51,786 bases of DNA from a virus: the IMG/VR virus record IMGVR_UViG_3300025104_000002, positions 1-51,786 of that record. One strand, given 5' to 3'. Positions 29,437 to 48,290 of the stretch are shown here, piece by piece. Position 1 is the stretch's first letter; the number at the start of each line of letters is the position of its first letter. The notes beneath the pieces are model-generated. The model had not been told where the DNA came from. It did no database searches and saw nothing but the letters and a program-made list of their open reading frames with translations. The position numbers and the translations under genes were made by a program.

Positions 29437-31689
29437 TCACGTCCACCCCGCCGCAGGCAAACGCTTGATCTCGCGCCGTCGTTGAATAACACCGCCCTCA
29501 GATGCGTTATGCAAATGGAGCATCAGGTACTGCAAGGCTTCGGCCACGTGCGAGTGCTTGTTCTTGTCGATGTCGCCTTCGCCCTTGGGTTTGAAGCGGT
29601 ACCCGCCCATCATGGCCGCTTTGAGGTGCGTGCAGCGCGGATCGACAAGGAACGCCGGGTCGCCGTCCACCTGCCGCATTAGGTACTCGTCCACGGCGTT
29701 GATGCGGGCCGAGATGTTGTTGGTCTTGGCCGGGATGACCTTGAACCCCTCAGCTTTGATGATGTCCACCGCGCTGCGCTCGTCAGTTTGGGCACGTTGT
29801 ACCCCTGCGGGGTCAACGACGATGAGGACCGGGGCACCGGGGAAGCGTTCGTACAGCAGGGGGCGCAGCACCGTGCGGACAAACCGCTGGATGCCCATGT
29901 CGAAGCTCACCGCTTCGTCGAGGATGAGCGCCCGTCCACGGGGGTCTTGCTGCCCGATCACAGCCGCAGGCGTCAGACCCAAGTCCATGCCGATGACGAT
30001 GGGCCGCACCCCGTTGATAATAGGCCGGATGCGCTCCTTCGCCATGTGGTAGTCTGGTCGGAAGTACTTGTACACCGGCATCCCTGCGGATGACAGCCCG
30101 TACTCACCGTCGATGTAGACCCGGATGTACTCCTCCGAGCGACCCTGCGTATCGTAGTACCCGTCCGGCAGGTTCTCGATGTTCTCGGCGTAAGGGCTGC
30201 GGCCCGAGGGCTGCTTGAACACCTCCCACCCGTTGTTGTTGGGTGACACCCCATCTTTGGGATCGAGGTGTTCGAGTTGGTAGTACCACCACGTGTCCAT
30301 CGTCGGCGGGTTGGTGTCGCCCCACATGCCGTACCACGTCGGCCCGCCGTCCTTTGCAGATGGGTACCGCCCGATCCGCTTACTCATCGCATCCACGATG
30401 TCCGGGTGGATGTCGCGGCATTCGTTGAACCACGCGAAGGTCAATTCCAACGAGTTCAGGTTCGCCACGTCATCGGCATCGTCCAGCGCCCGGAACATGA
30501 TCTCGCACTCCACGTCGCCCACCTTGAAGAAGTAGGTCTTCGTGGTCTTCAGGTACTCGCCACACACACCCGGTGGGAACCAGTCGAGGAACGTCTTGAT
30601 GGTCGTGTCCTGCAACTGGCGAGCGGTTTCACGGACGACGGCTGCACGGGTCTTGCGGATGCCGTTCGCGTTGGGTGCCTGCATGGAGGCACGACGCACG
30701 ATCTCGAACGAACAAGTCACGCTCTTGCCTGAGTTGTGGTGAACCGTCCCATCCACAGTCACATAGTTGTTGGTATCGAGAACCTGCATATCCCAATACA
30801 CCTGCTTGAAAGGCAGACGCTCTATGGATACAACGGTCCCGTCGGACACGGAGTTTCTGTATGAACGCGAACACGCAGCGAATAATCGAACTTTCCAACG
30901 GGCAACGCTCGTCCGTAGAGATCGCAGAGCTTGTCGGGCTTTCCCCTCGCTACGTTCGGAAAGTAATGAAGAAGTTCGACCTCCCGCGTTTTGGAGAGGG
31001 TGCTCAGTCGGGATCACGCAACCACCAGTTTGTGTCTGGACGGCGAGTTGACCATGATGGCTACGTCCTAGTAGCCGCCCCCAAAGACCACCGATACGCA
31101 CGGCAACCGTCTGGGCGAAAGACGAAAGTAATTTTCGAACACCGGCTGGTGATGGAGCAAAAGCTGGGTCGATATCTGCTTCCCGAAGAAGTAGTTGACC
31201 ACGTAGACGGGCTGACTCTGCATAACGCGCCAGATAATCTACGGCTGTTTGCGTCAAACAGTGAGCATCTGGCTCAGACTGCGACAGGGCCGCGTATGTG
31301 GTCTCCAGAGGGGGCGAAGAACATAGGTGCAAGGACTGACCGGGGCGTAGAGATTCAACGGGTTGATAGCTATGGTCAGCGCAGAGCACGCGGTGAAATC
31401 CGGCTGCAACAAATTCTCCTCGCAGCGTTGTCACTCGGTATAGATAGTCCTTTCCTTTTGGGAACGCACCGCCACTTGGAGAAAGCTGGTATCGACCCGT
31501 CTTGTCGTTCCAACTTAGAACGCGCACTGGCCGATCTATACGCTCGATGGGGATGGCCCCCTCCTCAGTTTGGATAAGGGTACCACCTGCGACACAGCCG
31601 ACCGGCCCCATGAGGACGCGCATCTTGGCGTCCGAGGCCATGAACTTCCTGCCGGTGGGCGGGGGTGTGTAGTTGATGTCAAGCGGCAT
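29437..31689 (-). CDS. terL: Large terminase subunit containing an intein
   Basis: The precursor is 750 residues. Removing the intein (residues 32-319) leaves a 462-residue terminase, a normal size. The splice joins GPVG to SGKS and so rebuilds the Walker A motif GPVGSGKS, meaning that ATPase activity depends on splicing. The extein then shows a Walker B region (LELTFAWFNE), a PFAM terminase-type arginine-rich segment and a nuclease domain with IGMDLGLTPAAVIGQ and LIVVDPAGV carrying the metal-binding Asp residues. The enzyme translocates and cuts phage DNA during packaging. The gene follows the small terminase and overlaps a 62-codon gene at its start by 1 nt. Confidence 0.92.
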   Translation of the reverse strand: MPLDINYTPPPTGRKFMASDAKMRVLMGPVGCVAGGTLIQTEEGAIPIERIDRPVRVLSWNDKTGRYQLSPSGGAFPKGKDYLYRVTTLRGEFVAAGFHRVLCADHSYQPVESLRPGQSLHLCSSPPLETTYAALSQSEPDAHCLTQTAVDYLARYAESARLRGQLLLREADIDPAFAPSPAGVRKLLSSFAQTVAVRIGGLWGRLLGRSHHGQLAVQTQTGGCVIPTEHPLQNAGGRTSSLLSERSEGKARQALRSLRTSVARWKVRLFAACSRSYRNSVSDGTVVSIERLPFKQVYWDMQVLDTNNYVTVDGTVHHNSGKSVTCSFEIVRRASMQAPNANGIRKTRAAVVRETARQLQDTTIKTFLDWFPPGVCGEYLKTTKTYFFKVGDVECEIMFRALDDADDVANLNSLELTFAWFNECRDIHPDIVDAMSKRIGRYPSAKDGGPTWYGMWGDTNPPTMDTWWYYQLEHLDPKDGVSPNNNGWEVFKQPSGRSPYAENIENLPDGYYDTQGRSEEYIRVYIDGEYGLSSAGMPVYKYFRPDYHMAKERIRPIINGVRPIVIGMDLGLTPAAVIGQQDPRGRALILDEAVSFDMGIQRFVRTVLRPLLYERFPGAPVLIVVDPAGVQRAQTDERSAVDIIKAEGFKVIPAKTNNISARINAVDEYLMRQVDGDPAFLVDPRCTHLKAAMMGGYRFKPKGEGDIDKNKHSHVAEALQYLMLHLHNASEGGVIQRRREIKRLPAAGWT
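30806..30834 (+). promoter_or_regulatory. Possible promoter for antisense HNH gene
   Basis: TTGAAA (30806-30811) and TACAAC (30829-30834) are separated by 17 nt, a five-of-six and four-of-six match to sigma-70 boxes, about 27 nt before the HNH start codon. It lies inside sequence that encodes the C-terminal splicing blocks of the intein on the opposite strand. Its function is inferred only. Confidence 0.25.
30861..31577 (+). CDS. HNH homing endonuclease antisense within the TerL intein
   Basis: The 238-residue product has an N-terminal HTH (SVEIAELVGLSPRYVRKVMKK, about residues 18-38) and a full HNH nuclease region at about 90-140: EHRLVMEQKLGRYL, VVDHVDGLTLHN and APDNLRLF, supplying the H..DH..N..N/H pattern of phage HNH endonucleases. 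A C-terminal region of about 100 residues ends near ARWGWPPPQFG. The start is supported by CGGAG 7 nt upstream. The whole gene lies inside the intein DNA (30733-31596) on the opposite strand, leaving 19 nt at the block A end and 128 nt at the block F/G end. First codon positions face first codon positions; the second of each gene faces the third of the other. It is likely the homing nuclease that spreads the intein. Confidence 0.9.
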   Translation: MNANTQRIIELSNGQRSSVEIAELVGLSPRYVRKVMKKFDLPRFGEGAQSGSRNHQFVSGRRVDHDGYVLVAAPKDHRYARQPSGRKTKVIFEHRLVMEQKLGRYLLPEEVVDHVDGLTLHNAPDNLRLFASNSEHLAQTATGPRMWSPEGAKNIGARTDRGVEIQRVDSYGQRRARGEIRLQQILLAALSLGIDSPFLLGTHRHLEKAGIDPSCRSNLERALADLYARWGWPPPQFG

Positions 31690-42234: not shown

Positions 42235-45200
42235 ATGATGGACATCGTAACCATTGATTTTGAAACCTACTACGACAAGGACTATTCCCTGTCGAAGATG
42301 ACCACTGAATCCTACATCCGTGACCAGAGGTTCGAGATCATCGGTGTGGGCGTCAAGGTCAACAACTACCCCACCGACTGGTACAGCGGCGACAACCCCG
42401 GTAAGTTCCTCAAGTCGCTGAACTACAGCAATAAGGCCATCCTGTGTCACAACACAGCGTTCGATGGTGCCATCTTATCGTGGCACTTCGACATCCGTCC
42501 GAGACTGTGGTTGGACACCCTGAGCATGGCGCGTCCCTTTCACCAGTTGACGGTGGGCGGTAGCCTCAAGGCGTTGGCCCAATACTACGGGTTGGGCGTC
42601 AAGGGCGAGGAAGTGGTAGCTGCAATCGGCAAGCGGCGCAAGGATTTCACCCCCGAAGAACTTGCCCGGTACGGGCAGTATTGCATCAATGACGTGAACT
42701 TGACCAAGGCACTGTTCGACAAGCTCAAGGTGGGGTTCCCTGTCAGCGAACTGCTGGTCATCGACCAGACGCTGCGCATGTACACCGAGCCGGTGATCGA
42801 ACTGGATGTGCCACTCTTGGAGAAACATCTTGAGGAAGTCCGCACCCGCAAGCGCACCCTGATCTCTGACATCGGCCACGGCATGGGTGGTGAGCAGGCG
42901 GTGCAGGACATGCTGATGTCCAACGACAAGTTCGCCGAGTACCTCAAGCGGCTGGGTGTGGAGCCGCCCACCAAGATCAGCGCCAAGACGGGCAAGGAAT
43001 CGTGGGCCTTCGCCAAGACTGACAAGGGCATGACCGACTTGCTGGAACATCCTGATGAGCGTGTGCAGGCTGCGGTCGCTGCCCGACTGGGTGTGAAGTC
43101 CACCCTCGAAGAAACCCGCACCGAGAACCTGATCGCCGTAGCGAAGCGTGGGCGACTACCCATCATGCTCAACTACTACGGTGCCCACACGGGGCGCTTC
43201 AGTGGCGGCGACAAGCTCAACCTCCAGAACCTGCCGAGCCGTGGCAACACGACCATCCGCAGGGCGCTCAAGGCACCCGAGGGCCACGTGCTCATCTCGT
43301 GTGACTCCGCGCAGATCGAAGCACGTACTGTGGCATGGGTGGCAGGGCAGGACGATCTGGTGCAGGCGTTCCGTGACAAGCGGGATGTGTATTCCGAGTT
43401 CGCCTCCGAGGTCTACGGTCGCAAGATCACCAAGGCCGACAAGGTGGAGCGGTTCGTGGGTAAGACCTGTATTGCCGAGGGAACTCTTGTATTATCGCAT
43501 CACGGCTGGAAGCCTATTGAGTCGGTGACGACCGACGATTTGTTGTGGGATGGACAGGAGTGGGTATGCCATCAAGGATTACTGAACAACGGCATCAAGC
43601 CAACATTGAATCTGTGCGGCGCTTGGTTGACACCGGATCACCAAGTCTGGTCAGGGACGCAGTGGCTGGAAGCGCAATCAGTAGTAGCCGACGAAGATAC
43701 CCTCTACCGAGCATTGGACACCGGAGCGGAAAACTTACCGTCACAGGCTACATTGCTGGCACCCGAGGCGGGGTCAGTGCCCTTGTGGTCAGATGCGACT
43801 GCAACGAAGCCGAGTATCGAGTTGACCACCATAACTTCAAAAATTTCAGAAGCACTCGCTGCCCTCTGTGCGCCAAGAAAGCATCGGTTGCAAAACGCTA
43901 TTGGATGTACAGCGAAGCAATGGCGGATGATGACCACCGGACTCGCTTGCTCAATCGTCTCGCTTCGGCAATCACTCGCTGCCACTCTCCATCCAACAGA
44001 GCGTATCAGCACTATGGTGGGCGCGGCATACGGGTGTGCCCCGAGTGGCGCTTTGACCGAGCAGAGTTCCTGCGGTACGTCCAGACCCTCGACGGTTGGG
44101 ACAACCCGACTTTCGAGATGGATCGGATCGATGTGGACGGGCATTATGAACCGGGGAATATCCGCTTCGTATCGCGGAGCGATAACCTCCGCAACAAGCG
44201 CAAGATCGCAGACCTTGAAGCGCGTGTACGACATCTTGAACAGCGGCTCAAGGAACAGGTTCACGATCCTGACTGAAGCTGGCCCGCTCGTTGTCCACAA
44301 CTGCGTTCTGGGTCTGGGCTACGGCATGGGCGCAGAGAAGTTCCGACGCACTCTGGAGATCGGCCAAGGCGGCATCAACGTGGTGATCGACATCAACGAG
44401 GCAGAGCGGATCGTCCGCCTCTACCGACAGAAGAACTGGAAGATCGTACAGTTTTGGCAGAAGTGCGGCAACGCACTGAAGGACATGTTGTACGGTGGCA
44501 GCAATGCGCTGCACCCGCAGGTTCGCTACGACCCCAAGGGTATCCGCTTGCCAAACGGGTTCTACATCCAGTACCCGGCGCTGCGCGAGACGGCCAATGG
44601 GTTCATGTACATCTCGGATGCCCGCACCTACCAGAAGGCGCTCAAGGATCGAGTGCTCACTGGCGCACCGGCTGACGACATCGCATGGACTCGCGTCTAC
44701 GGCGGCAAGGTGACGGAAAACTGCATCGCCGCAGGGACGGAGGTGCTGACCAACCGAGGCTGGGTTCCTATAGAGAACGTGCAGTCGGCAGACATGGTGC
44801 ATGACGGAGTGGAGTTCGTTCGCCACGGTGGGACAGTGTTCAAATCTGTCCAAGACTGTATCACCATTGATGGCGTGTGGATGACCCCAGACCACGAGGT
44901 ACTGACAAATACCGGATGGCAAGCTGCATCACAGAACCCCGAACCTTACAGACCAAACCTTCGGCATGTTGACCGCTATCAACTGCGAGTGGACCACGCG
45001 CAGGACCAACACCACGAACAAGCGCAACACCGAGCGCAGAGTGGATGTACCGGCGCTCAGTGCGCAGACTGGGATACCCAGATCAACCCTGTACTACCGA
45101 CTCAAGCACGGCCTGTCTTTGACATCCTCAACGCAGGACCAAGACAACGGTTCGTAGTTCGTGGCGATAACGGTCCGTTCATTGTGCATAACTGTGTGCA

Positions 45201-45423
45201 AGCTCTTGCTGCATTGGTGATCCGTGAGCAGATGGTCGAGGCTGGCAAGCACTTCAAGGTGGCCTTCCAAGTCCACGACGAGATCATCATCTGCGTCCCC
45301 GAGAGCGCCGCGCTGGCAGCGCAAGCCAAGCTCGAAGAGATCATGTCCACCCCGCCCAAGTGGGCACCAGACCTGCCGGTTGCATGTGAATCCGGTGTGG
45401 CTGCGAACTATGGAGATACCTGA
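42235..45423 (+). CDS. Family A DNA polymerase with two inteins
   Basis: The start is set at ATG 42235 (AAGGA upstream), giving a 1062-residue precursor; a GTG at 42211 is the alternative. The N-terminal 3'-5' exonuclease begins with VTIDFETYYDK (exo I, D8 and E10). Polymerase motif A is DSAQIEAR (D357), motif B GKT/CVLGLGYGMG is split by intein 1 (residues 412-689), and intein 2 (830-986) splits TEN/CVQALAALV. Motif C is HDE near D1015. Removing both inteins leaves 627 residues, a normal phage polymerase. The enzyme replicates the phage genome with the primase-helicase. Activity requires both splicing events. Confidence 0.92.
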   Translation: MMDIVTIDFETYYDKDYSLSKMTTESYIRDQRFEIIGVGVKVNNYPTDWYSGDNPGKFLKSLNYSNKAILCHNTAFDGAILSWHFDIRPRLWLDTLSMARPFHQLTVGGSLKALAQYYGLGVKGEEVVAAIGKRRKDFTPEELARYGQYCINDVNLTKALFDKLKVGFPVSELLVIDQTLRMYTEPVIELDVPLLEKHLEEVRTRKRTLISDIGHGMGGEQAVQDMLMSNDKFAEYLKRLGVEPPTKISAKTGKESWAFAKTDKGMTDLLEHPDERVQAAVAARLGVKSTLEETRTENLIAVAKRGRLPIMLNYYGAHTGRFSGGDKLNLQNLPSRGNTTIRRALKAPEGHVLISCDSAQIEARTVAWVAGQDDLVQAFRDKRDVYSEFASEVYGRKITKADKVERFVGKTCIAEGTLVLSHHGWKPIESVTTDDLLWDGQEWVCHQGLLNNGIKPTLNLCGAWLTPDHQVWSGTQWLEAQSVVADEDTLYRALDTGAENLPSQATLLAPEAGSVPLWSDATATKPSIELTTITSKISEALAALCAPRKHRLQNAIGCTAKQWRMMTTGLACSIVSLRQSLAATLHPTERISTMVGAAYGCAPSGALTEQSSCGTSRPSTVGTTRLSRWIGSMWTGIMNRGISASYRGAITSATSARSQTLKRVYDILNSGSRNRFTILTEAGPLVVHNCVLGLGYGMGAEKFRRTLEIGQGGINVVIDINEAERIVRLYRQKNWKIVQFWQKCGNALKDMLYGGSNALHPQVRYDPKGIRLPNGFYIQYPALRETANGFMYISDARTYQKALKDRVLTGAPADDIAWTRVYGGKVTENCIAAGTEVLTNRGWVPIENVQSADMVHDGVEFVRHGGTVFKSVQDCITIDGVWMTPDHEVLTNTGWQAASQNPEPYRPNLRHVDRYQLRVDHAQDQHHEQAQHRAQSGCTGAQCADWDTQINPVLPTQARPVFDILNAGPRQRFVVRGDNGPFIVHNCVQALAALVIREQMVEAGKHFKVAFQVHDEIIICVPESAALAAQAKLEEIMSTPPKWAPDLPVACESGVAANYGDT
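43468..44301 (+). mobile_element. Intein 1 in polymerase motif B (278 aa)
   Basis: Block A is CIAEGTLVLSHHGWKPIE, block B is LTPDHQVW, block F is RVYDILNSGSRNRF and block G ends LVVHN before Cys+1. These are complete class 1 splicing signatures. Between B and F about 165 residues are Ser/Thr/Ala/Leu-rich without a recognisable endonuclease fold. The DNA there encodes an HNH nuclease in another frame. The insertion lies in the fingers O-helix of the polymerase, a classic conserved intein site. The intein is homologous to intein 2 at both ends. Confidence 0.93.
43566..44276 (+). CDS. HNH endonuclease overprinted in polymerase intein 1
   Basis: The ATG at 43566 is preceded by AGGAG five nt upstream, so it has its own ribosome site inside the intein message. 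The 236-residue product has an N-terminal segment, then GKLTVTGYIAGTRGG and a Cys-rich knuckle (VRCDC and STRCPLCAKK), the HNH region ITRCHSPSNRAYQHYGGRG, VCPEWRFDRAEF, MDRIDVDGHYEPGN and RFVSRSDNLRNKR, and a C-terminal coiled coil. That is a complete phage-type HNH nuclease. Its first codon position is the intein third position. It covers intein block B at its N-terminal side and block F at its C-terminal side, so essential splicing residues are doubly encoded. Confidence 0.9.
   Translation: MPSRITEQRHQANIESVRRLVDTGSPSLVRDAVAGSAISSSRRRYPLPSIGHRSGKLTVTGYIAGTRGGVSALVVRCDCNEAEYRVDHHNFKNFRSTRCPLCAKKASVAKRYWMYSEAMADDDHRTRLLNRLASAITRCHSPSNRAYQHYGGRGIRVCPEWRFDRAEFLRYVQTLDGWDNPTFEMDRIDVDGHYEPGNIRFVSRSDNLRNKRKIADLEARVRHLEQRLKEQVHDPD
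44722..45192 (+). mobile_element. Intein 2 in DNA polymerase (157 aa mini-intein)
   Basis: Block A is CIAAGTEVLTNRGWVPIE, block B is MTPDHEVL, block F is PVFDILNAGPRQRF and block G ends FIVHN before Cys+1. The size is that of a mini-intein. The ends align with those of intein 1 (CIAxGTxVL, GWxPIE, TPDH, DILNxGxRxRF, VHN), so the two are related. The residues between B and F are His/Gln/Arg-rich and include a region encoded by a remnant of a nested nuclease gene. Confidence 0.92.
44966..45157 (+). pseudogene. Remnant of an out-of-frame HNH gene in intein 2
   Basis: A 63-codon frame in the third reading frame starts at 44966 and is open upstream only back to a stop at 44903-44905. It reads INCEWTTRRTNTTNKRNT, the segment that follows the catalytic His/Asn region in phage HNH nucleases (compare the NIRFVSRSDNLRNKR tail of the complete copy). 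A small HTH (VPALSAQTGIPRSTLYYRLKHG) like those on HNH C-termini comes next. No nuclease core precedes it. I read it as the tail of a deleted nested endonuclease. A functional DNA-binding mini-protein cannot be excluded. Confidence 0.7.
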
Positions 45424-46724: not shown

Positions 46725-48290
46725 ATGTTGGTAGTGGAGAAGGCCAAAGCCCTCGCACTGAAGCTGAACAACCCGAACCGGGTGCTGGACTCCATCCCCA
46801 CGGCCAAGTCACTGGAGGTACGGGGCACCCAGATCGTGGTGACACCACATCGACTAGATGAGGTCAAGGTGCTTCGCAACCTCGGCATCAAGGCACCATC
46901 GCCCATCCTCCACTACTACGACTGGCCGGGGCAGCACACCCCGTTCGACCACCAGCGCGAGACTGCGGCGTTCCTGACGCTGAACCATCGCTGTCTGGTG
47001 CTCAACGAAATCGGTACAGGCAAAACCCAGTCCGCGCTGTGGGCTGCGGACTACCTGATCAAGACCAAGAAGGTCAAGAAGGTGTTGATCCTGTCACCGC
47101 TCAGTACGTTGGAGCGTGTGTGGGGCGACGGCATCTTCACCGGGCTGGTCCATCGCCGCTTCGTGGTGCTGCATGGCACCGCTGAGAAACGCCTGAAGCT
47201 GCTGCGCACCGAGGCTGACTTCTACATCATCAACCACGACGGGTTCCCAATCATCAAGGACGAGTGTCACGGTATGTTTGATCTGGTCATCGTGGACGAA
47301 GCGGCAGTGCTGCGCAACCCATCGACCCAGCGGTTCAAGATTTTCCGCAAGTGGATCGACAACAACCCGCATGTACGGCTGTGGCTGATGACTGGGACGC
47401 CCACTCCCAACGCCCCCACGGATGCGTGGGCACTGGCGAAGCTGGTGGGTTCGCCCCACCTCACCAAGACGTTCACGGCTTTCCGTGAGCAGGTAATGAG
47501 GAAGATCGGCCAGTGGAAGTTCGTGCCACGCCCCGAGGCAGTGGACATCGTGAAGCACATCCTGCAACCTGCTGTGCGATTCACACGCGACGAGTGCTTT
47601 GACTTGCCTGAGACGATCATCCAGACCCGGCAGGTGGAACTCACTGCGGAGCAGAAGAAGCACTACACGCAGATGCTGCGTCACTTCGTGACCGAGGTGA
47701 GCCAAGACACGGCTCGTGGTGGAACCATCACTGCGGTCAACGAGGCTGTGAAGATTCAGAAACTGGTGCAGGTCGCCTGCGGCGTGGCGTATGGCGACGA
47801 CGGTCAGAACATCGAGATCGACTGCTCACCACGGATCAACTTAGTGAAGGAGGTTATCGAGGAAGCAGGTGAGAAGGTGATTCTGTTCGTACCACTGACA
47901 GGCACACTGCACTTGCTGGAGAAAGAACTGAGCAAACACTGGAGTGTTGGAGTCGTCAACGGCGAGGTGTCCAGTACACAACGCAACAAGGTATTCCACG
48001 ACTTCCAATATGGCACTGACCCCCACGTTTTGATTGCCCACCCCGGCACGATGGCACACGGTCTGACACTGACCACCGCCTCGACGATTATCTGGTACGG
48101 GCCGATCAACAGCAACGAGGTCTACGTGCAAGCGAACGGTCGCATTGAACGGATTGGCAAGAAGCGCGTGTCCAACGTGATCCACATCGAGGCCACGGAC
48201 TTGGAGCACAAGATGTACGAGCGACTGAAGAACAAGCAGAAGCTGCAAGGCTTGCTGCTCGACCTGATCAAAGAGCAAACACAGAGGTGA
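46725..48290 (+). CDS. SF2 (SNF2-like) helicase
   Basis: The 521-residue protein has a DNA-binding-looking N-terminus and a full SF2 core: motif I NEIGTGKT near residue 100, motif Ia LILSPLSTLERVW, motif II DEAA near residue 190, motif III LMTGTPTPN and motif VI QANGRIERIG near residue 480. The spacing and the QxxGRxxRxG form are those of SNF2-type translocases. AAGGTG precedes the ATG. A role in replication-fork remodelling or recombination with the adjacent nucleases is likely. Confidence 0.88.
   Translation: MLVVEKAKALALKLNNPNRVLDSIPTAKSLEVRGTQIVVTPHRLDEVKVLRNLGIKAPSPILHYYDWPGQHTPFDHQRETAAFLTLNHRCLVLNEIGTGKTQSALWAADYLIKTKKVKKVLILSPLSTLERVWGDGIFTGLVHRRFVVLHGTAEKRLKLLRTEADFYIINHDGFPIIKDECHGMFDLVIVDEAAVLRNPSTQRFKIFRKWIDNNPHVRLWLMTGTPTPNAPTDAWALAKLVGSPHLTKTFTAFREQVMRKIGQWKFVPRPEAVDIVKHILQPAVRFTRDECFDLPETIIQTRQVELTAEQKKHYTQMLRHFVTEVSQDTARGGTITAVNEAVKIQKLVQVACGVAYGDDGQNIEIDCSPRINLVKEVIEEAGEKVILFVPLTGTLHLLEKELSKHWSVGVVNGEVSSTQRNKVFHDFQYGTDPHVLIAHPGTMAHGLTLTTASTIIWYGPINSNEVYVQANGRIERIGKKRVSNVIHIEATDLEHKMYERLKNKQKLQGLLLDLIKEQTQR

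Follow-up and report, generated by a model that had tools for sequence, protein, structure and literature searches.

Intein 2 of the phage DNA polymerase gene described here very probably belongs to a family of two-gene phage inteins, made up of a Hint splicing domain and an overlapping HNH gene, in which the nuclease decayed stepwise while the splicing frame was kept. In textbook inteins, the homing nuclease is a domain of the spliced protein. In this family the nuclease is a second gene, in another frame and under its own selection, and the intein frame needs only to be free of stops. The window is the whole stretch of 51,786 nucleotides that was analysed (IMG/VR virus record IMGVR_UViG_3300025104_000002, positions 1 to 51,786), and all coordinates refer to it. 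Labels made of L and a number (e.g. L041) each denote one compared locus or intein unit, and a slash within a motif marks an intein junction or insertion point.

A mini-intein in a phage DNA polymerase gene

The host gene of the intein matches Pfam DNA_pol_A (2.5e-29) and DNA_pol_A_exo1 (9e-6), as well as the DNA polymerase family PHROG 17 (2.9e-83). The two features concerned are:

42238-45420, plus strand: precursor of a phage family-A DNA polymerase with a 3'-5' exonuclease domain, split by two inteins (Pfam, PHROG)
44722-45192, plus strand: intein 2, a mini-intein of 157 residues (alignment of relatives, AlphaFold2 model, Foldseek)

The 157 codons of intein 2, the length given by an annotation made from the sequence alone (hereafter the first-pass annotation), lie in the polymerase frame between YGGKVTEN and CVQALAAL, in a conserved polymerase region 5' of the VHDE motif. 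Alignment with relatives places all of the sequence marks of a class 1 intein: the nucleophile at position 1 is a Cys (Cys1, encoded at 44722), the TxxH of block B is TPDH (residues 55-58), block F reads VFDILNAGPRQRFVV, and the C-terminal His-Asn is followed by Cys+1 (FIVHN/C). An AlphaFold2 model built from 25 alignment rows (pLDDT 85.9, pTM 0.75) has the horseshoe-like Hint fold, with a confidence of 95-98 for residues 1-60 and 131-157 and the lowest values, 56-67, on residues 81-120, the stretch that holds the HNH remnant described below. When the model was compared with the PDB using Foldseek, the best match was the Mtu RecA mini-intein (2in0, E 3.4e-4), the mini-inteins MchDnaB and gp41-1 followed, and the top 31 matches were all inteins or intein-like domains. 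On the strength of these motifs and the modelled fold, splicing of intein 2 is predicted to persist in the window phage.

Both ends of a nuclease gene in the +1 frame

The +1 frame of intein 2, which reads QIPDGKLHHRTPNLTDQTFGMLTAINCEWTTRRTNTTNKRNTERRVDVPALSAQTGIPRSTLYYRLKHG..., is free of stops from 44906 to 45154. The ORF at 44966-45157, which the first-pass annotation had read as the tail of an HNH nuclease plus an HTH, lies within the intein as described, and it matches PHROG 3377 'HNH endonuclease' (E 1e-5, profile positions 81-138 of 196). That reading was too narrow at the other end: homology to HNH genes begins at about 44915, upstream of the ORF, and the N-terminal end of the nuclease survives too. 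The ORF starts internally, at 44966, because the true start codon of the HNH gene has been lost. A search of this ORF against Pfam gave no model above its cut-off and weak HTH models only; the intact nested HNH genes of relatives likewise exceeded no Pfam cut-off, and the PHROGs were informative instead.

We built a profile of 222 positions from 13 intact nested HNH genes, with the window excluded. The remnant frame scored 61.7-63.8 bits against it, with the match split between positions 3-25 and about 153-216, and the other five frames of intein 2 all scored below 0. When the intein frame was redrawn synonymously 4,000 times, the score never exceeded 22.3 bits, and in 2,000 dinucleotide shuffles the best of six frames never exceeded 9.4 bits. 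The resemblance to HNH genes is therefore not due to chance, and the comparison with HNH tails that had been proposed as a check thus came out significant. Profile positions 26-152, the nuclease core, are absent, so that what is left is a remnant of a homing endonuclease of the PHROG 3377 type with homology at both of its ends:

44915-44977, plus strand, frame +1: N-terminal module of the HNH remnant (DGKLHHRTPNLTDQTFGMLTA; profile positions 3-25 of 222)
44981 to about 45111, plus strand, frame +1: C-terminal end of the nuclease domain and HTH tail (NCEWTTRRTNTTNKRNT...GIPRSTLYYRLKHG; profile positions 153-216 of 222, 41.5 bits; PHROG 3377, E 1e-5)

Steps of decay

Intact copies show what has been lost. 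The intein that Shewanella phage SFCi1 carries at this site contains a complete HNH ORF of 224 residues in the same +1 frame, and the closest intact copy, L041, aligns with intein 2 over its full length at the DNA level; relatives with the core in this frame, which the first-pass annotation had suggested looking for, therefore exist. Comparison with these copies defines four further features:

44896-44900, plus strand: GAGGT within the block B codons (H-E-V), Shine-Dalgarno-like, 8 nt 5' of the former HNH start (same spacing before ATG in 28 of 82 intact units; putative ribosome site)
44909-44914, plus strand: ATACCG, where the start codons of the HNH gene used to be (DNA alignment)
44978-44981, plus strand: deletion junction at which the nuclease core present in L041 is gone (DNA alignment)
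45112-45157, plus strand: stretch in which the remnant frame reads on into the DNA of block F as far as a TAG, the ancestral stop having been lost (DNA alignment)

The absence of the catalytic core, already noted by the first-pass annotation, amounts to 387 nt (129 codons; 855-471+3) that are missing between FGMLTA and NCEW relative to L041, a multiple of three that leaves both reading frames in phase. The HNH gene starts with ATGATG in L041, L013, L014, L015 and L017, where the window has ATACCG, and GAGGT has been kept in the window because it encodes block B. The window and L041 have in common a missing segment of the tail and the read-through into block F, while L041 retains the core and ATGATG. 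As it has both nuclease ends and a tail deletion that is common to an intact copy, the window intein descends from a copy that bore the HNH gene. The copies at this site evidently form an ordered decay series, from intact (L013, L017) through tail-trimmed (L041) to core-deleted and start-less (the window), to which four further remnant mini-inteins described below can be added. Loss of the core with retention of the splicing motifs is seen against both L041 and L002. Of the cycle of invasion, fixation and nuclease loss that the first-pass annotation had invoked, the loss is thus visible in the sequences; invasion and then fixation would have come before it.

The remnant does not decay faster at HNH codon positions 1 and 2 than intact copies do (ratio 0.54 vs 0.58), and its substitution pattern still tracks the HNH frame. 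Core loss in the window was therefore probably recent, and the case for decay rests on the deletion, the lost start and this recent date rather than on relaxed substitution. An intact HTH tail and substitutions that still follow the HNH frame could also mean that the remnant works as a short DNA-binding microprotein initiated at ATG 44966, acting perhaps as a repressor or as a shield of the homing site. We regard this as improbable, since the start used in the family is lost, no Shine-Dalgarno-like motif was seen by eye before 44966, and no relative with this ORF alone was seen, L051 and L019 having kept other parts of the gene.

About as improbable is the idea that the intein is not yet stable and that the phage population still has the full nuclease, the deletion being a passing variant or one made by assembly. 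The lack of excess decay would be in keeping with it, as would the recovery of one other record of this locus: a scan of genome contigs for further copies found solely a second copy of this virus, the public record L106. Yet L106 has the same sequence, with 1 mismatch in 6,225 bases, and agrees with the window across the deletion junction; moreover, the deletion preserves both frames, and independent deletions of the same kind exist in other mini-inteins.

The L106 contig (CAKZRW010000020.1) is binned as an uncultured actinobacterium and is 99.98% identical to the phage over these 6,225 bases; it is probably a virus contig inside a bacterial bin.

Two genes on one stretch of DNA in full-length relatives

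We collected 90 distinct intein units from phage records and IMG/VR, a first sample that excludes candidates without a C end or longer than 420 residues. A full HNH gene was present in 82 of them, 72 times at +1 and 10 times at +2; in no unit did it share the frame of the intein. We drew a second sample with a C-terminal query and examined 74 of its 80 listed loci, leaving out L033, L055, L056, L187, L192 and L089, which were present already. L278 was set aside (22 stops in the intein frame; two separate places joined), and L222, L242, L269 and L277 are without the N part. This sample added 32 new full-length units, with the nuclease at +1 in 19, at +2 in 13 and, once more, in the intein frame in none, the arrangement that would have spoken against the first-pass annotation.

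After copies at least 95% identical were removed from the first sample, 73 nested regions with 14,083 codons remained. These contain no stop in the intein frame, compared with 484±20 expected when the HNH codons are redrawn synonymously, and 785 stops in the unused third frame. In independent pairs drawn from the first 34 +1 representatives of the same HNH type and all 10 +2 representatives, the fastest-changing position of the Hint parts is intein position 3. In the nested part it is intein position 1 in the +1 units (13/13 pairs) and intein position 2 in the +2 units (3/3 pairs), in both cases the third position of the HNH codons. By these stops and substitutions, two genes share the nested DNA: the HNH gene is under selection at the protein level, and the intein frame must only stay open. 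We considered whether frameshifts made by assembly had put the HNH genes out of frame and rejected this, given the same frames in unrelated records, the zero stops and the phase switch. Nor does the +1 resemblance in the window stem from base composition or from conservation of the intein frame, without there ever having been a nuclease gene. Although the fragment alone is above no Pfam cut-off, this reading is ruled out by relatives that have intact genes at the same place and in the same frame, and it has next to no probability given the 61.7 bits against the redraws and shuffles.

In 28 of the 82 intact units, the HNH gene begins at an ATG 8 nt 3' of GAGGT, at intein codon 63, the choice of start having been guided by the ribosome-site motif. 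Block B codons thus appear to serve also as the ribosome site for the HNH gene. A lenient search found no ribosome-site motif of at least 4 nt in 20 of the 82 units, and there was no clear HNH start site in the YGGK/ and YGGKL/ insertion groups. For the intact HNH of L041, AlphaFold gave a poor model (pLDDT 69.9) with no PDB match at E <=0.001.

We propose that the Hint splicing domain and a spacer are both read in the polymerase frame, and that the HNH gene, in another frame, starts just 3' of block B and runs across this spacer. Translation of the HNH protein of intact copies would begin internally, at the block B ribosome site. If it acts as known homing nucleases do, this protein would cut polymerase alleles that lack the intein, and the element would spread in this way. 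In the window phage, the tail end of the HNH gene was trimmed first, a stage common to L041, followed by the in-phase core deletion and the loss of the start codon, in either order. Splicing would have been retained with an intein frame that stayed open, and the remnant would now be spacer.

Related inteins (L002-L105) are found at three points a few codons apart in YGGK-L-TEN-xVQA (YGGK/, YGGKL/ and ..EN/), and full-length inteins at all three have the HNH gene out of frame. L255 and L267 carry the HNH gene at +2 in polymerase sites that are normally +1-nested, hinting at repeated capture of HNH genes at the same place. Inteins of the same family, also with an out-of-frame HNH gene, occur in contexts outside DNA polymerase (L068, L075, L083, L096, L261, L262, L272 and L276); several of these contexts resemble NKLxQIA/CGxxY, a site that is empty in the helicase of the window (46725-48290).

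Other mini-inteins and distribution of the intein

There are eight mini-inteins in the first sample, with that of the window counted once, and HNH remains were found in four: at both ends in the window, L005 and L019 (whose tail was recognised by eye), and at the N end in L051. The second sample contributed L231, a mini-intein with both HNH ends and a +1 remnant, so that +1 remnants are present in four mini-inteins besides the window's (L005, L019, L231 and L051). No profile-level trace of HNH was found in L006, L064, L097 and L105 of the first sample or in L238, L244 and L266 of the second. On a Hint tree, which has few columns and many open forks, the eight mini-inteins require seven label changes, of which at least five are forced by well-supported branches. 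The traceless mini-inteins would fit an ancestral mini-intein whose full-length relatives acquired HNH later, a reading that hardly deserves consideration for the window copy, where both nuclease ends and the tail deletion common to intact L041 rule it out, and this exclusion applies to the window copy rather than to the traceless ones.

Of the 80 nearest polymerases, 74 have no insert at the intein 2 site, 2 carry an intein there (281 aa, +1 HNH) and the remaining 4 are uncalled. The intein is therefore patchy among close relatives, and this distribution, together with the HNH family, suggests that the nuclease can cut empty alleles and that the intein family is, or was, capable of homing. 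One of the 74 empty sites, in L120 around 4266, belongs to an intein-free polymerase with a Cys at +1 (GKVTEN/CVQAL), possibly a trace of precise intein loss.

Three inteins, three nesting arrangements

The window contains two more inteins, each overlapped by a nuclease gene:

43468-44301, plus strand: intein 1, 278 residues, in the motif B region of the polymerase (sequence comparison)
43566-44276, plus strand, frame +2: intact HNH gene overlapping intein 1 (PHROG 374, 2.3e-35; nested-HNH profile, 316.8 bits)
30736-31596, minus strand: third intein, inserted at the Walker A site (GPVG/SGKS) of the terminase large subunit (sequence comparison)
30861-31577, plus strand: HNH_3 endonuclease gene antisense to the terminase intein (Pfam HNH_3, 29.6 bits, cut-off 24.8)

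The two polymerase inteins are alike at both ends, as the first-pass annotation had held (43.5% over 69 residues, E 3.6e-16, at one end; 52% over 25 residues, E 9e-7, at the other). The HNH gene of intein 1 has AGGAG 5 nt 5' of its ATG at 43566, and all seven relatives of intein 1 examined have an out-of-frame HNH, five at +2 and two at +1. The antisense HNH_3 gene of the terminase intein is kept in Pectobacterium phage Koroua and Pseudoalteromonas phage PHS3. Comparison of the window with Koroua shows that the fastest-changing position in the terminase overlap is intein position 2 (103/206; others 77/207 and 74/206), which is the third position of the antisense gene.

We constructed a tree of HNH proteins from 44 of 89 rows. 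A branch (100/99) sets the +2 genes, joined by a minor +1 group (L009, L012, L092, L191 and L193), apart from the main +1 genes and all ten free-standing HNHs. The HNH genes of the two polymerase inteins are therefore separate lineages. With a +2 gene in intein 1 and an antisense gene in the terminase intein, the case of intein 2 thus stands as the third independent out-of-frame event that had been claimed for this genome. Three inteins with three nesting frames in one phage suggest that out-of-frame capture is common. Beyond this genome, we think it likely that a widespread class exists among the inteins of phage replication and packaging genes. In this class, the homing nuclease would always have a gene of its own that overlaps the intein at +1, at +2 or antisense, and such genes would have been captured several times. 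If so, splicing and homing belong to two genes that evolve on shared DNA, the intein frame is constrained there to openness alone, the loss of the nuclease leaves legible two-ended scars, and the successive stages of the homing cycle can be followed in sequences. Intein surveys confined to the host frame would label such elements nuclease-free or unusual, and the phage would be a test system for the overprinting of a gene on a spacer.

Relation to known systems

In-frame HNH inteins and mini-inteins derived from class 1 inteins are both known. The family described here resembles class 1 inteins in its Hint domain, its insertion at a conserved active site and the placement of the nuclease between blocks B and F, and the window copy resembles their mini-inteins in having lost the nuclease with the splicing motifs retained. 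Unlike class 1 inteins with an in-frame endonuclease, the nuclease here is a separate overlapping gene in another frame. Our partial coverage of the literature yielded no paper on an out-of-frame nuclease inside an intein, though the preprint 'Actinobacteriophage inteins ... non-canonical architecture' may be similar.

The published ShiLan domain is an out-of-frame HNH insertion without an intein (PMC11855218). It shares with the present family a patchy distribution and an insertion whose host frame stays open while a different frame encodes the HNH, as found here in the intact relatives. ShiLan has no intein motifs or known splicing, whereas the host frame here is an intein with all of its blocks and a decayed copy is seen. 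The window element is thus ShiLan-like at the level of the gene, yet not a ShiLan insertion.

Two known relatives are the inteins of APSE-1, in which P46 is deposited as an HNH endonuclease inside the polymerase P45, and of SFCi1. These are of the same intein family and in the same polymerase region, but they are full-length with an intact +1 HNH, whereas the window copy is without the core. The free-standing phage HNHs of the PHROG 3377 / 374 type belong to the same nuclease family, and the ten sampled branch with the main +1 nested genes; they overlap no intein, whereas the window remnant lies within one.
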